A DNA stretch of 64,000 nucleotides from Lysobacterales bacterium (lineage in GTDB: Bacteria > Pseudomonadota > Gammaproteobacteria > Xanthomonadales > SZUA-38). Positions within the stretch are counted from its first letter, which is position 1. Each line of letters begins with the position of its first letter. The DNA is taken from the NCBI GenBank assembly GCA_028285525.1, contig JANQOZ010000031.1, forward strand, positions 1-64,000. Direction: 5' to 3'. The position numbers and the translations under genes were made by a program. This document shows positions 1 through 5,475 of this stretch, one piece after another. The notes beneath the pieces were generated by a model. The model was not told the origin of the DNA. It did not search any database and saw nothing but the letters and a program-made list of their open reading frames with translations.

Positions 1-366
1 GGGCTTACCTTCAAAATGACGCCGTCACTCATCGAGCTGCCGTACCTCGGGCGTCATCCGCTGGGTTTCGACAACCAGCTGCAAAGCCTGATTACGGCGC
101 TGCTGGACCTGCCGAACTGGCACTTGTTCTGGCTCTTCGGGCTCCCCGCGGTTGTCTGGACGGCGTGGCGCACCCGGAACTCCGCCGAGGGGCGCGGGCT
201 GAGCACGATCATGCTGCTCGGGCTGGGTTTTCTACTTGCGCTTTTCTTCTTCACGCAGGCGGCGGTCTGGGCCGAGTCCATGACCGCGTCCAACCGGCTC
301 GCCCTGCACCTGGCGCCAGCTATCGGGCTCTGGGCATGGGTGCTGCTGGGGCGTCAGCACAGCTGA
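1..366 (+). CDS. C-terminal fragment of an integral membrane protein, probably a lipid-linked-sugar glycosyltransferase
   Basis: The reading frame is open to the left edge, so only the last 120 or so residues are present. Two clear hydrophobic segments are visible (around LFWLFGLPAVVWTAW and LLGLGFLLALFFFTQAAVW), with a short soluble stretch and a final hydrophobic HLAPAIGLWAWVLLG. Such an end is typical of multi-spanning GT39/GT83-like glycosyltransferases or of polymer-processing membrane proteins, but no catalytic motif lies in the visible part, so the assignment is inference. Its stop overlaps by 13 bases the 3' end of the convergent GT4 gene. The neighbouring genes are glycosyltransferases, which fits a role in surface glycan assembly. 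Confidence 0.6.
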   Translation, partial: GLTFKMTPSLIELPYLGRHPLGFDNQLQSLITALLDLPNWHLFWLFGLPAVVWTAWRTRNSAEGRGLSTIMLLGLGFLLALFFFTQAAVWAESMTASNRLALHLAPAIGLWAWVLLGRQHS

Positions 367-1469
367 CGGTACAGACGCGTCAGGCTCTCGGCCGTTTGGT
401 CGATGTGAAAATGGGGGAAGTTTGCGCGCGCCTGGTTTCGGCAGCGTTCGCGAAGCTCGACGTTGCTGCTGATCTCCCGCAGCCGCTCGATCAGCGAGGG
501 GACGTCATCCGGTTCGGCGAGCAGCCCATGGCCGCCGCGATTGACCACATACGGCACGCCGGATCCGGGCAGGTTGGTGGCGATTACCGGGGTTCCCAGG
601 GCCATCGCTTCCACCAGCACGATCCCGAAAGCTTCGGTCCGCTCGATGGAGGGCAGACAAAGGCAGTCGGCTTCGGCGATGACGCTGTTGCGCAGCGCGT
701 CATCCGCATCGTGGATCATCTGAACACGCTCCTGAAGGCCCCAGGCAGCAACCAGCTTCTCCAGCCGGCTTCGCTCCTGGCCGTCGCCGACCAGCAGCAG
801 GCTGGACTCGGGAATCGACCTTATTGCCTCGAGTAGACGGTCAAAGCCTTTGTAGTAGGTCAGTCTGCCGACGGCCGCCACCTTGAATCGACCTGGAGGC
901 CACGTAACGGATTTCCTGATCTTCAACCTGGCTGGGTTTATCCCGTAGGGGATCACGTCTAAACGTCGCGGGTCGATCGAATCAAGTACCGGGCTGCTTG
1001 ATGCGTAAGCCTGGCTTGCGGCAATGATTTTGGACGATCTCTTCATGACCATCGATTCGAACACCCGGTATATCGGATAAGCGACTTGAAGCCTGCGCTG
1101 ATAGGCAGAAGCGACGACATCGGAATGCCAGCTGACCACCCAGGGTATCCGACGGGCAGCTGGGATCGCCAGCAACAGGAAAGTCGCTGGGTTAGGCATA
1201 TGAAGGTGAAGCACCTGCGGCTTAAATTGTCTTAGCTGCCGGACGGCCGCCGGCGCAAAACCTGGCGCGATCGGCGTAAAGAGCCATTCCCCGTGCGATT
1301 TGACCCCAGTGAGGTCAGCTTTCTCGGGAACGGGGATATCGCGCTTCTGATGAACAAGCATGGCGCAACGCACGTCCGAGCCCGCAAAGGCCTCAAACAG
1401 GTCGCCGCAAAAAGTTTCGATGCCGCCGGGCACCGGCGGAAAATACTTCCCGACGTGAAGAACCCGCAA
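354..1469 (-). CDS. Glycosyltransferase family 4 (GT-B fold)
   Basis: The 371-residue product starts at a TTG with RVLHVGKYFPPVPGG, the glycine-rich N-terminal loop of GT4 enzymes that contacts the acceptor. The C-terminal half carries AAVGRLTYYKGFDRLL and the EX7E-type nucleotide-sugar motif within TEAFGIVLVEAMALGTPV. It should transfer a sugar from a nucleotide donor to a growing lipid-linked glycan at the inner face of the membrane. It is the last gene of a minus-strand set with the DUF2304 and GT2 genes, 11 bases after the former. Donor and acceptor cannot be read from sequence. Confidence 0.9.
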   Translation of the reverse strand: MRVLHVGKYFPPVPGGIETFCGDLFEAFAGSDVRCAMLVHQKRDIPVPEKADLTGVKSHGEWLFTPIAPGFAPAAVRQLRQFKPQVLHLHMPNPATFLLLAIPAARRIPWVVSWHSDVVASAYQRRLQVAYPIYRVFESMVMKRSSKIIAASQAYASSSPVLDSIDPRRLDVIPYGINPARLKIRKSVTWPPGRFKVAAVGRLTYYKGFDRLLEAIRSIPESSLLLVGDGQERSRLEKLVAAWGLQERVQMIHDADDALRNSVIAEADCLCLPSIERTEAFGIVLVEAMALGTPVIATNLPGSGVPYVVNRGGHGLLAEPDDVPSLIERLREISSNVELRERCRNQARANFPHFHIDQTAESLTRLYRQLC

Positions 1470-1480
1470 CGCCGACGCTG

Positions 1481-1870
1481 CTAGCGGCCGCTGGCGCGGC
1501 GGCTCTCACCGCCGCGGTCTGCCTCGATCTCGGCCTGTAGCCGCAGGTTTTCTTCGGCCAGGATCGCCATCTTTTGTCCCAGGCGGCGGATACGCCGCTC
1601 GTGCCGCGATGACTCGATGTCCGACTTGAGCATTTTCAGCAGCAGCATCCCGATCGCCAGAGAAAACAGGAGGTTTGGCGGGTAGGAAACACCGGTGTAG
1701 CCGGCGATCAGGTCGATGGTGCGAGGAAACAGGCCCAACACGATGGTAATCCCGGCGACCACAAGCCACCACAGAGCATAGGGGCCATGGAGGTGGTCGC
1801 GCCGGACCAGGTAGAGGATCGCGCCGGCTAGCAAGATCCCAACAAACGATGTGGTTACCTGGTAGCTCAC
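1481..1870 (-). CDS. DUF2304 family membrane protein
   Basis: This is a 129-residue protein with three hydrophobic segments (near residues 5-22, 32-48 and 64-80) and a basic, coiled-coil-prone tail rich in Arg, Glu and Gln (about 85-125). The layout matches DUF2304 proteins, which nearly always sit next to a dolichol-phosphate-mannose-type GT2 gene, as here. The GTG start overlaps the stop of the upstream GT2 gene by four bases, indicating translational coupling. The biochemical role is unknown; helping the GT2 enzyme or moving its lipid-linked product across the membrane is a reasonable inference from gene pairing only. Confidence 0.8.
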   Translation of the reverse strand: MSYQVTTSFVGILLAGAILYLVRRDHLHGPYALWWLVVAGITIVLGLFPRTIDLIAGYTGVSYPPNLLFSLAIGMLLLKMLKSDIESSRHERRIRRLGQKMAILAEENLRLQAEIEADRGGESRRASGR

Positions 1871-2619
1871 GCTGCCTCCGCCTTACGCCGGCGCCGCGGC
1901 CCCAGGCGGGACACGCACAGCACCGAGGTTTGCATCATGTATTGAGCAACAACGAACCAGGAGCTGAAAACCCTTGAATGACCGGCTTTTCTCGCGGACA
2001 TCGTGACCGGAACTTCTTCGATGGAGATGCCCTGACGCTGCAGCAGCATGAGTACGCCGATATCCTGGTAGTCCAGCAGACTGGCATACCGGCGACCGAG
2101 CACCTTGATGGCCCGGAGGTTATAGGCCCGCAGCCCGGAGGTGAAGTCGCGGATAGAGAGACGCGTCAGCAGGCGGAAGTAAGCCCAGGCAACGCGCTTC
2201 GCGGCGCTCAGGCGGTGAGGGCAGGCGCCGACGGCCACGTCCGTCCGTCCGCTGACGATCGCCTGCAGAATCTTATTGACCGAGCGGGCGTGATGCTGAC
2301 CGTCGGCGTCCATCGTCACCACATATCGATAGCCATGTTGCAGCGCATAGCGCAGCCCGGCCTGAGTGGCGCACCAGGCTCCCATGGAAAACGGCAGCTT
2401 GAGAACGGCAGCGCCGGCCGTCGCGGCAACGGCGCCGGTGCGATCGGTGCTGGCGTCATCGACCACCACCACACAGCAGCGGTGGCGGCTGCGGATGTCG
2501 CTGACAACCGTGCCGACGGTTCGCTCCTCGTTGCGGGCGGGTATAACAACCAGAAAGTCCGAACGGTTTTGCCGATCCGGCAAAGCGATAACATCCCCCC
2601 GTGCGGGTTGTGACGTCAT
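1867..2619 (-). CDS. Glycosyltransferase family 2 (polyprenyl-phosphate sugar transferase type)
   Basis: The 250-residue product has the GT-A hallmarks VVIPARNEERTVG near the N terminus, VVVVDDASTDRT, and the metal-binding DADGQ motif. This is the pattern of DPM1-like enzymes that load a sugar onto polyprenyl phosphate. A longer frame begins at a TTG at 2631, but the ATG at 2619 is preferred because a GGGGA ribosome site lies just upstream. There is no obvious membrane helix at the C terminus; the coupled DUF2304 protein may provide the membrane part. It is the first gene of a three-gene minus-strand operon whose promoter must lie in 2620-2846. Confidence 0.88.
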   Translation of the reverse strand: MTSQPARGDVIALPDRQNRSDFLVVIPARNEERTVGTVVSDIRSRHRCCVVVVDDASTDRTGAVAATAGAAVLKLPFSMGAWCATQAGLRYALQHGYRYVVTMDADGQHHARSVNKILQAIVSGRTDVAVGACPHRLSAAKRVAWAYFRLLTRLSIRDFTSGLRAYNLRAIKVLGRRYASLLDYQDIGVLMLLQRQGISIEEVPVTMSARKAGHSRVFSSWFVVAQYMMQTSVLCVSRLGPRRRRKAEAA

Positions 2620-2846
2620 CAAAGTCCCCAAAATGCAGCTTTGTAACTGTGGATTTTACCATTGGTCTTCACGTTTTATCGATTTTTTCCGACATTTTTC
2701 CGCTGGCGCCAAAAAAAGTGCACTTTTTTGATGTTGGCTGACGCTTTTTCTGTTTCTTATCCGCTTCTACCTAATGAGAACGCTGCTTCCGAGCAGCCAC
2801 AGTTGGGAAAAGATCACCCATTGATCACTTAGGAGAGGGTTATTCC
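2620..2846. other. Divergent intergenic region between the GT2 operon and the dockerin-like gene
   Basis: This AT-rich stretch in a GC-rich neighbourhood separates two divergent transcription units. It contains an 18-base perfect palindrome (2712-2729) and a strong Shine-Dalgarno sequence AGGAGAG at 2831-2837 for the gene at 2847. No convincing sigma-70 -35/-10 pair could be fixed by eye for either direction. Confidence 0.6.
2712..2729. promoter_or_regulatory. Perfect 18-bp palindrome, candidate operator
   Basis: The sequence AAAAAAGTGCACTTTTTT reads the same on both strands. It lies about 90 bases from the GT2 start and 118 bases from the dockerin-like gene start, so a dimeric regulator bound here could act on both units. 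Alternatively, the transcript could form a short A/U-rich hairpin. Which regulator would bind is unknown. Confidence 0.45.
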
Positions 2847-3629
2847 ATGAAAAAGTTAGCAACAAGCATTGCTGCACTCGGCCTGCTCGCCGGCGGTTCT
2901 GTCGCCAGCGCCTGCACCTTGAGCGCCTGGTCGTCTACGAGCGGCACTGCGCCAGAAGTTGGGGGCCCGGGCGACACCGTCGAACTAGCACGCTACTCTG
3001 GCATTTGCTCAATGCAGTCTGACGGCGCGGAGTTTGTCCAGGACAACTCGCCGGCCGCTGAAGGTGCGTTGATCGCCCGATTTTATTTCCTCGCTTCGGG
3101 CACCGGCGATGCCACCATTTACGAGGCGTTTTCTGACGAAGGTGGAGCAACCTCGGTTTTCGCCATCTCCGCGGATGGTGCGAACGTTACGGTAACGCCT
3201 GCCTCTGGCACCGCCGCTTCAGCGCCGATGCGGGCGGGCTGGAATTCAGTGGAGGTTAGCTGGACCGGCGGCGGCGGGATCAGCCTCTGGGTGAACAGCG
3301 ACTCTACGACTGCCGCTGCAGATGCAACGGGTACCGATACCGGTAGTGCCACCATCGACGCCATCCAGCTGGGTACGGTTGACGGTCTCGGAGGCTTCAC
3401 CTCTGTGAACTTCGACCAGTACGAGTCTCGCCGGACCACGGCAATCGGGCGGGAAATTCCTGGCGATGCAACTGGCGACGGTGGCGCGCTGAATATTTTC
3501 GACGCCATTGGCATTATTCAAGAAGTGGTTAACGGCACCGCTCAAGTGGGGCAGCCAGATTGCACAGAAGACGGTGCGATCAACATTTTTGACGCGATCT
3601 GCGTCATTCAGGCCGTCGTCAACGGTTAA
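2847..3629 (+). CDS. Secreted protein with C-terminal type I dockerin-like repeat pair
   Basis: The 260-residue product has a signal peptide (MKKLATSIAALGLLAGGSVASA, cleavage near residue 22). A Ser/Thr/Gly-rich middle of about 180 residues resembles a beta-sandwich of the LamG or jelly-roll type, though this is uncertain. The C terminus holds two related 23-24 residue repeats (207-230 and 238-260). The second has the canonical Ca-loop spacing DCTEDGAINIFD followed by a helix ICVIQAVVNG. The first, DATGDGGALNIFD, has one extra Gly in the loop. Duplicated loops of this type define dockerins, which bind cohesin domains. The next gene, 23 bases downstream, encodes a cohesin-like domain. A strong AGGAGAG ribosome site supports the start. 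Confidence 0.8.
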   Translation: MKKLATSIAALGLLAGGSVASACTLSAWSSTSGTAPEVGGPGDTVELARYSGICSMQSDGAEFVQDNSPAAEGALIARFYFLASGTGDATIYEAFSDEGGATSVFAISADGANVTVTPASGTAASAPMRAGWNSVEVSWTGGGGISLWVNSDSTTAAADATGTDTGSATIDAIQLGTVDGLGGFTSVNFDQYESRRTTAIGREIPGDATGDGGALNIFDAIGIIQEVVNGTAQVGQPDCTEDGAINIFDAICVIQAVVNG

Positions 3630-3652
3630 TCTAGGCTCAGGAGTTTAGTAAC

Positions 3653-4117
3653 ATGAACATGAAAAAGATTTCTCTGGCACTGATCCTCGGAGCCACTATC
3701 GGGACGTCCGCATTTGCCGCACCCTCGTCTGATCTCGTGGTCACCCAGTTGGCTGCTGGCAGCACTACGTCATTCGAATTCGACTTTTTGAATGACGCAT
3801 CAGCGACAGCGCTGCAGTTCGAACTGAAGCTTGGACAGGGCGTAAAAATTGAAACTGGAAACTGTATTGCGGGCCTACCAACGTCACACACCGGCGCATG
3901 TAATGCGTCAAATGGTGTGCTGAAAGTAGCGATCTTCAGTCCGACCAACGCTCCGCTGACCAGCGGGTCGATCGGCAGCGTAACGGTCTCCGGTTTCGAC
4001 GTTTCGAAGAGGGCTGAGGTATCCGGTTTGTTGGTGGGGAACGCAGACGGGCAGCCGGTTACGTCTAACGCCATTCTTGACGGCGGTGCTTCCCTTAAGG
4101 AAAATTTCGAGAAATAG
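3653..4117 (+). CDS. Secreted single-domain cohesin-like protein
   Basis: The 154-residue product has a signal peptide (MNMKKISLALILGATIGTSAFA, cleavage near 22) and one domain of about 125 residues. The order TSFEFDFLNDASATALQFELKL, then NGVLKVAIFSPTNAPLTSG, then SIGSVTVSG, and finally EVSGLLVGNADGQPV follows the strand pattern of cohesin or cohesin-like domains. In these, a buried central strand is followed by a small-residue turn and a late D-A-D-G-like strand. C71 and C83 may form a disulfide. The protein has no visible anchor, so it would be free in the periplasm or outside unless bound by a partner. An AGGAG ribosome site at 3639-3643 supports the start. The fold assignment is by pattern and should be tested. 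Confidence 0.6.
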   Translation: MNMKKISLALILGATIGTSAFAAPSSDLVVTQLAAGSTTSFEFDFLNDASATALQFELKLGQGVKIETGNCIAGLPTSHTGACNASNGVLKVAIFSPTNAPLTSGSIGSVTVSGFDVSKRAEVSGLLVGNADGQPVTSNAILDGGASLKENFEK

Positions 4118-4155
4118 TTCTTTAGTGCTCGAAAAATAAGGGTTTTGAGTGTTAT

Positions 4156-4183
4156 GATGCTGAGGTCGGGAGGCCTCAGCATC
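4156..4183 (+). terminator. Perfect 10-bp hairpin without a T-tract after the cohesin-like gene
   Basis: GATGCTGAGG and CCTCAGCATC form a perfect stem with an 8-base loop. The following bases are not T-rich, so it is not a classical intrinsic terminator. It could stabilise the upstream mRNA 3' end or attenuate transcription into the IPTL-CTERM gene 45 bases on. Confidence 0.5.
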
Positions 4184-4227
4184 GTGCTGCTCCGCCCTTC
4201 TTAGTTTAAATTTGGGGTGATTAGAAA

Positions 4228-5475
4228 ATGAATACTAAGTTTATCGGACGTCTGGGCTGTGTGGCACTCGCGCTCTGTGCCTCCACAGCCTTCAGCCAGC
4301 CCGCACTTCAGTGCGGCACGGCGAATATCGCACCAGGTGCTAGCGGAAGCGTCTCCTGCGACTACCTGGGGACGGGATCAACGGTCGTCGGGGGGCAGGT
4401 CACGTTGACCATTGCAAGCGCCGATGTCACCGTTGATTCCTATACGTGTGCCAACGGTTTTACCTGCCCAGCGTCAGGCAGCCCAGCTAACATTATCTTC
4501 GCTGATTTTGGTCTGCAGGAATTTCAGGACACTGCAAACGCTATCCAGGTGAATGTAACTGTCGCCGGGGGAGCGATGGCGCCTCAGGATGTACCAGTTG
4601 CGATCAGCGGCGAACAGTACGCTGATGCGGCTAACGCGCCTGTCGCAGCAAGCGGCAGCCAGGACGGCAACATTCGGATCCAGGACGGGCCTGGTCCAGG
4701 CATTCTCAACGTGCAGCCAGCGGCTCTCGGGCTTGGTGCTGACGTGAACGCACCTGCCGGAACGGGCGTGATTACCATCTCGAACGACGGCGCCATGGGC
4801 GATGCGACGATCAACCCGACCTGTTCACTCAGCGCGCTTTCCGGTGGCGCCGCGGCAACGACGTCTATCAACGTTACCGCAGCCCCGGCCTCTCTGGCGC
4901 CCGGAGCCAGCGGCACGGTCACGGCGAGCTGCTCGGGTACGGCCGTTGGCCAGGCGACAGCTGACTACACCTGTAGCGCTGGCGCAGCGGTTGTCACCAA
5001 TGCGACGACCGCCATAACCTGCGACATCGCCGTGGGCACGCCTAACCCGAATCCCGCGGCAGGGACCACTACGTCCATCAATGTTGGGCCGGTTACCCGA
5101 GGTAATTCGGGAGTGGGTGCCCTGACGTTCACTGAGACCAACAACTCCGGCGGTTCGTATGATGTATCTTGTGTACTGACCGACGACGGTATGGGCGCCT
5201 TCGCGATCACCAGTGCAGCGACGGCGACTGTGAATGCTGCGACGCCGTTTACGTTTGCCGTTAGCGGCACGTCAACGGTGACCGACCCACAGCCTACGGG
5301 GCTTGCCACCTGCACCTACAGCGGTGACGCCACCGGCACGGTCACGATCAACCTCGGTATCGCCCTGGTGCCGGAGATTGTTCCGACCATGACGGAGTGG
5401 GGTCTGATTCTGCTGACCTTGGCCCTGGTTGGCTTTGGTGCCTTCCAGCTGCGTCGGCGGGCTCCGCTGGCGTAA
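4228..5475 (+). CDS. IPTL-CTERM sorted surface protein
   Basis: The 415-residue product has a signal peptide (cleavage after AFSQ, about residue 24) and a long, low-complexity extracellular part rich in Gly, Ala, Thr and Ser with paired cysteines. At least two beta-sandwich-like repeats are visible. The C terminus is the tripartite sorting signal VPTMTEWG (385-392), a hydrophobic helix (393-408) and an RRR cluster (409-411). This matches the IPTLxxWG-CTERM signal handled by exosortase H-type enzymes, with VPTM in place of IPTL. The sortase gene is not in the window. Such proteins are thought to be processed at the membrane and linked to the cell surface. It is followed by a strong terminator. 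Confidence 0.85.
   Translation: MNTKFIGRLGCVALALCASTAFSQPALQCGTANIAPGASGSVSCDYLGTGSTVVGGQVTLTIASADVTVDSYTCANGFTCPASGSPANIIFADFGLQEFQDTANAIQVNVTVAGGAMAPQDVPVAISGEQYADAANAPVAASGSQDGNIRIQDGPGPGILNVQPAALGLGADVNAPAGTGVITISNDGAMGDATINPTCSLSALSGGAAATTSINVTAAPASLAPGASGTVTASCSGTAVGQATADYTCSAGAAVVTNATTAITCDIAVGTPNPNPAAGTTTSINVGPVTRGNSGVGALTFTETNNSGGSYDVSCVLTDDGMGAFAITSAATATVNAATPFTFAVSGTSTVTDPQPTGLATCTYSGDATGTVTINLGIALVPEIVPTMTEWGLILLTLALVGFGAFQLRRRAPLA

Follow-up and report, generated by a model that had tools for sequence, protein, structure and literature searches.

A dockerin-bearing secreted protein and its cohesin-like neighbours form a candidate noncellulosomal surface-display set in the Xanthomonadales

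Introduction

Cohesins and dockerins occur outside cellulosomes, and without multi-cohesin scaffoldins, in Archaeoglobus fulgidus and ANME archaea, and the role of such noncellulosomal domains has been called unknown or unclear (PMC9012536, PMC5244752). Single cohesin modules with dockerin partners are also found outside cellulosomes in the NagJ-type proteins of Clostridium perfringens, and Ruminococcus flavefaciens ScaG (CohG) is a protein with little beyond one cohesin (4wkz, 4n2o). PEP-CTERM/exosortase sorting (PMC1569441) includes a branch of IPTL-CTERM tails and XrtH and, in the midcut-by-XrtH family (NF033207), an XrtH-type signal lies inside a longer frame.

Here we analyse a locus in a 64,000-nucleotide stretch of DNA from a Lysobacterales bacterium, hereafter the window, in which a dockerin-like and a cohesin-like secreted protein had been predicted from the sequence alone to be encoded side by side and to bind each other. 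From sequence comparison and structural models, we propose that the products of this locus, P1, P2 and P3, probably form a small noncovalent surface-display set outside any cellulosome, and that the main function of P1 is likely to be the binding of P2 and/or P3.

Results

Three adjacent genes encode a dockerin-bearing protein and two cohesin-like proteins

The two predicted open reading frames, both with signal-peptide-like starts, are separated by 23 bases (3630-3652), and a third gene follows on the same strand after 110 bases. The features of the locus are:

2847-3629, + strand: P1, 260 aa, ConA-like domain and type I dockerin (open reading frame with signal peptide)
2910-3458, + strand: ConA/laminin-G-like beta sandwich of P1, residues 22-204 (VIA-align; Laminin_G_2 in one relative)
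3462-3626, + strand: dockerin of P1, residues 206-260, with I10-F11 in each of its two loop-helix repeats
3653-4117, + strand: P2, 154 aa, a secreted protein consisting of one cohesin-like domain (fold; conserved beside P1)
4138-4199, + strand: strong RNA stem-loop between P2 and P3 (folding z -5.08 relative to shuffled sequences)
4228-5475, + strand: P3, secreted, 415 aa, with cohesin-like head, repeats and IPTL-CTERM tail
4297-4719, + strand: cohesin-like head of P3 (iterated cohesin-like profile match, E 1.1e-15)
5380-5460, + strand: IPTL-CTERM sorting signal of P3, VPTMTEWG, hydrophobic helix and RRR (Pfam PF18203, 24.7 bits)

An AlphaFold2 model of P1 was built from 27 sequences (mean pLDDT 93.8). 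The N-terminal fold matched glucuronan lyase (VIA-align Z 15.0), the AbnA C-terminal domain (14.7), TtX122 (14.0), Cip1 (13.9) and CBM66 (13.4), and one P1 relative matched Laminin_G_2 (E 2.2e-4). Going by this fold, the ConA-like domain may bind a glycan. Clostridial neurotoxin receptor-binding domains were also among the fold matches, and a toxin function was rejected because they share only the ConA-like sandwich with P1; the matches beside them are lyases, sialidases and CBMs.

The C-terminus of P1 contains the two predicted dockerin repeats with NIFDA cores. Calcium loop 1 (3465-3503) has 13 residues, a one-residue insertion relative to the 12 found in 45 of 65 relatives. The two duplicated calcium-loop/helix repeats that define a type I dockerin are present in the alignment and as helices 196-208 and 226-238 of the mature AlphaFold2 model. 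Pfam Dockerin_1 matched residues 206-256 (E 0.071) with 13.8 bits, below its cut-off of 22.9, and we therefore describe the domain as a dockerin by family profile and structure, not as a Pfam-threshold member. The match goes beyond chance, because Dockerin_1 matched 15 of 25 P1 family members at E<=0.1 (best 8.4e-11) and a family profile of the C-terminal 53 residues found the CelS dockerin of Clostridium thermocellum in the PDB (E 9.2e-07). Each of the 65 dockerins has 0, 2 or 4 cysteines, and such even counts would be expected of disulfides outside the cytoplasm.

For P2, an unrelated fold in structure prediction had been named in advance as grounds for dropping the cohesin assignment. The AlphaFold2 model (pLDDT 91.5) instead has the nine-stranded jelly roll of a cohesin. 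Cohesins made up all of the top 26 Foldseek rows and 49 of the best 50 VIA-align matches, with Z up to 14.4 (superposition at 2.3 A over 122 residues); the sole non-cohesin among these 50 had Z 9.8. The alignment given to AlphaFold2 combined P2 proteins with P3 heads and may have steered the model toward cohesin, so the model and the sequence evidence are not fully separate. No Pfam family matched P2 searched alone, and the best PDB match of a P2-only profile, to NagJ cohesins, reached just E 0.03; P2 by itself is thus no proof, and the case rests on the P3 heads and the fold. The P2 and P3-head families matched each other with an hhalign probability of 98.5%, the P3-head family found the PDB cohesin 1g1k (C. 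cellulolyticum scaffoldin; E 2e-15), and Pfam Cohesin matched 16 of 17 aligned P3 heads (best 9.9e-15), the exception being the P3 head of the window itself. The cohesin-like character predicted for P2 is therefore seen only through its relatives and its predicted fold. The proposed Pfam comparison, in turn, gave matches for relatives of P1 and for most P3 heads and none for P2. The dockerin and both cohesin-like domains of the window all lie below Pfam cut-offs, which, like the insertion in calcium loop 1, counts against the display model. A match of P2 to LegT (NCBIfam, cut-off 1200 bits; score 16 bits, E 0.0023) was at chance level and was rejected.

Cohesin and CBM folds are related, and the lower fold matches of P2 include CBM2-type domains and a fibrillar-adhesin CLIPPER domain (Foldseek, VIA-align). 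The P2 protein and the P3 heads might accordingly be CBM-like glycan-binding modules that share a substrate with P1, the dockerin being a calcium-stabilised tail, and the existence of four cohesin-like paralogues without a dockerin neighbour (see below) would fit such an arrangement. We consider this quite unlikely, given the near-complete dominance of cohesins among the best VIA-align matches, the identification of P3 heads as cohesins by sequence, the co-occurrence of dockerin and cohesin, and the recognition symmetry and cohesin covariation of the dockerin residues.

In relatives, several long P2-P3 gaps contain a stem-loop like that at 4138-4199 and the short gaps do not; one relative's stem-loop has a T-run as in a terminator. 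The structure could possibly lower P3 relative to P1 and P2. Scans for sigma-70 promoters and terminators gave nothing clearly above chance. Upstream, divergent genes for a GT4 glycosyltransferase, a DUF2304 protein and a GT2 glycosyltransferase adjoin P1 (window 354-2631, - strand), and a GT2-like gene also adjoins P1 in one relative (L034).

Dockerin-bearing P1 genes and cohesin-like genes are linked across the order

Of the 398 genomes sampled from the order Xanthomonadales/Lysobacterales, 77 contained a P1 match, covering 33 of 98 genera, with named records from Lysobacterales, Wenzhouxiangella and Chiayiivirga, and the match included the dockerin in 63 of the 77 genomes. A sample of 369 genomes of the class yielded no full-length P1 beyond the order, and viral contigs encoded no P1 relative. 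Three genomes of the class sample outside the order encode giant proteins with similar dockerins. In the collection scan the 25-sequence P1 alignment was too diverse, and a narrower alignment gave 30 loci.

Using a mature-domain profile built from A3, we found a cohesin-like gene <=700 bp from 52 of the 64 dockerin-bearing P1 genes for which sufficient downstream sequence was available. An iterated profile added five P1 loci with a cohesin-like neighbour, and in two more the cohesin-like domain was in the same frame as P1. Just two other cohesin-like matches, one of them a fused protein, were present among 8065 open reading frames in the P1 loci. The genomes behind the cohesin-like profile overlap with those scanned, so the count of neighbours serves as description, and it is the scarcity of other matches that is informative. 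P1 homologues lacking the dockerin had a cohesin-like neighbour in 0 of 7 cases (Fisher p 3.8e-05, a value that ignores descent: the seven represent about two or three lineages, and related genomes are not independent observations).

Both P2 and P3 were present in 30 loci, P3 without P2 in about 21, and P2 without a recognised P3 in 6. The loci that lack P2 count against the full three-protein model. The imbalance, together with the lack of an anchor on P2 in the relatives listed and a stem-loop that could raise P2 above P3, would fit a refinement of the display model in which P3 is the sole surface receptor and P2 a periplasmic chaperone or competitor that blocks premature binding or releases P1. 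The dockerin covaries to a similar degree with P2 and with P3 (see below), which fits binding by P2 but is not evidence of competition, and we regard this refinement as possible, with rather less than an even chance of being right.

The genome that contains the window encodes seven cohesin-like domains in seven separate frames and two dockerins. No multi-cohesin protein was found in it, and the scaffoldin with many dockerin enzymes that defines a cellulosome is thus not what this genome presents. Four further proteins of ~400 aa have a cohesin-like head and no dockerin neighbour (C20:15044, C82:73171, C35:28982 and C108:92773), which leaves room for cohesin-like domains that do not bind dockerins. 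With seven cohesin-like domains and just two dockerins, P1 might bind mainly unlinked paralogues while the neighbouring cohesins serve other partners. Gene order and covariation favour the neighbours, however, and the other dockerin protein has a cohesin of its own, making this very unlikely.

Dockerin repeats share recognition residues within proteins and covary with the cohesins

Positions 10, 11 and 17-18 are specificity positions of cellulosomal dockerins. Among 34 non-redundant P1 proteins, identity between the two repeats of a protein was 0.91, 0.82 and 0.91 at loop positions 10, 11 and 17, whereas identity between proteins was 0.16, 0.13 and 0.11. Positions 10 and 11 were both identical between repeats in 26 of the 34 proteins (~1 expected). 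Positions 13, 14, 20 and 21 behaved in the same way and positions 15, 16, 19 and 22 did not, so symmetry is confined to part of the loop and helix. Recognition positions that are near-identical between the repeats of a protein and divergent between species are, at the sequence level, a dual-binding signature.

Internal symmetry in solved dockerins supports two binding orientations, and a single binding mode is described for the C. thermocellum dockerins that fix individual enzymes straight onto the cell surface (PMC5429695). Symmetry in dockerins with single-cohesin receptors is therefore unexpected, and it would be explained if the P1 dockerin bridged P2 and P3, one on each face, in a ternary P2-P1-P3 complex. 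In agreement with such a refinement of the display model, symmetry never fell below 0.71 in non-redundant loci with P2, and all three clearly asymmetric dockerins were in loci without P2; the difference is weak and ignores phylogeny (Mann-Whitney p 0.02 for 29 non-redundant proteins, 0.12 for all). However, symmetric dockerins also occur with P3 alone, and solved cohesin-dockerin complexes are mostly 1:1. We think a ternary complex unlikely.

The plainer expectation of the display model, that P1 binds its neighbours, agrees with the covariation. With the ConA domain partialled out, the dockerin recognition residues correlated with cohesin distance at 0.43 (P2) and 0.45 (P3), and at 0.25 and 0.35, respectively, in the non-redundant sets. 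Of 300 random 12-column sets drawn from the ConA domain, no more than one gave a value as high. Some covariation with the cohesins was also seen at the other dockerin positions (0.10-0.29), which fits co-evolution of the entire domain with its partner.

P3 carries an IPTL-CTERM tail and the genome encodes XrtH

In the original prediction, the pair had no anchor and perhaps formed a two-part scaffold. The absence of an anchor holds for P1 and P2 but not for P3, the tail of which exceeds the curated Pfam and NCBIfam cut-offs for IPTL-CTERM (TIGR04174: 29.4 bits, cut-off 20.5). Likewise, the cohesin/dockerin pair stands, but the two-part scaffold was incomplete, as the third gene had been overlooked; with a cohesin-like head and an exosortase signal on P3, the set has two or three parts and includes an anchor.

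An XrtH gene lies elsewhere in the same genome (195.8 bits, cut-off 86), which thus has both halves of an IPTL-CTERM/XrtH system, a tail above cut-off and the exosortase. Across the sampled genomes of the order, XrtH was present in 60 of 63 dockerin-P1 genomes compared with 103 of 335 others, and the three dockerin-P1 genomes without it are 77-85% complete. A transmembrane-like C-terminal helix was found in 39 of 42 complete P3-type proteins, preceded by a P-x-[LM..] motif in 37 of the 42. The IPTL_CTERM cut-off was passed by 5 of the 10 P3 tails scanned, most of the others being weaker variants.

Separately, large secreted proteins ending in (I/V/L)F-x-(D/N)-(G/S)-FE were seen in five loci (L157, L158, L159, L041 and L039), with endings such as VFSDGFE, IFTNGFE, IFIDSFE and IFADSFE. 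This ending might be a so far unrecognised C-terminal signal.

Cohesin, tail helix and dockerin also occur in one frame

The second dockerin of the genome belongs to a frame of 3141 aa on contig C108 (L040:1690-11115, - strand). This frame starts with a signal peptide, a cohesin (Pfam, E 0.0064) and an IPTL-CTERM signal (21.4 bits, cut-off 20.8), continues with a second hydrophobic stretch that has a signal-peptidase-like end and a dockerin (E 0.0037), and finishes with ~2800 residues of repeats. Eight proteins from other genomes in the order have their parts arranged likewise (two in L169 and one each in L170-L174 and L179), so that nine proteins in all, own genome included, fuse a cohesin, an XrtH-type tail helix and a dockerin in one frame. 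Such a frame may be translated as a single precursor, or it may contain two overlapping genes that share the frame. Against the midcut-by-XrtH model, the C108 protein scored 20.4 bits (cut-off 45), and we therefore do not claim membership of that family.

In three loci of other gammaproteobacterial orders (L175, L176 and L177), a dockerin is near the C-terminus of RHS/YD-repeat-type proteins, and the gene for a secreted cohesin-like protein that lacks an IPTL tail lies 0.8-1.5 kb away. Together with the P1 sets and the C108-type fusions, these cases link dockerin and cohesin to three kinds of passenger.

Discussion

A dockerin and a cohesin encoded side by side in a non-cellulosomal bacterium, as originally predicted, are borne out by our computation: fold and profile give the domain identities, and synteny, linked presence and absence, repeat symmetry and covariation tie the two domains together. 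The P3 tail and its matching exosortase extend the picture to a third protein.

In the mechanism that we infer, which covers binding, its calcium dependence, localisation, the role of P2 and the ConA ligand, P3 would be exported and its IPTL-CTERM tail processed by XrtH, leaving the cohesin head at the cell surface. The P1 dockerin would bind this cohesin, probably with calcium, and could do so in either of two orientations because both repeats present the same recognition residues. P1 docked on P3 in this way would keep its lectin-like ConA domain at the cell surface. P2 may serve as a soluble cohesin for the same dockerin that caps, chaperones or releases P1, or bridges it to P3.

More tentatively, XrtH-anchored cohesins might be a general Gram-negative receptor for dockerin-tagged secreted proteins. 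Partners could come from separate genes, or from a precursor cut between cohesin and dockerin, whose giant passenger would be released and then noncovalently recaptured by its own cohesin. We see this generalisation as conceivable, and as clearly less probable than the display set itself.

The set is compact and genetically simple. It offers obvious candidate partners, includes an anchor, can be compared across a whole order, and connects the pairing of cohesins and dockerins with sorting by exosortases. Its many natural, mutually divergent cohesin-dockerin pairs might also be of use as orthogonal connectors. In the open-licence literature, we found no paper joining cohesins or dockerins with IPTL-CTERM or XrtH, or Wenzhouxiangella with dockerins. 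Noncellulosomal cohesins and dockerins are already known (PMC5244752, PMC9012536), so what is new here is the recurrent two- or three-gene set and its exosortase anchor.

Compared with the archaeal systems, among which the A. fulgidus cohesin 2xdh matches the P2 model with Z 13.5 (VIA-align), the Xanthomonadales have a recurrent two- or three-gene set in a Gram-negative background, with ConA-like cargo and an IPTL-CTERM/XrtH anchor. The NagJ-type modules of C. perfringens are carried on large hydrolases of a Gram-positive organism, whereas P2 is a lone domain and P3 has an exosortase signal. R. flavefaciens ScaG (Z ~11 to P2) resembles P2 in having little beyond one cohesin but is part of a cellulosome, and P2 has no anchoring sequence. 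The nine cohesin-tail-dockerin proteins resemble midcut-by-XrtH proteins in the internal position of the signal. Finally, P3 and the XrtH of its genome follow the IPTL-CTERM branch of exosortase sorting, and differ from other exosortase sorting in that the sorted protein is likely to be a cohesin receptor for another secreted protein.
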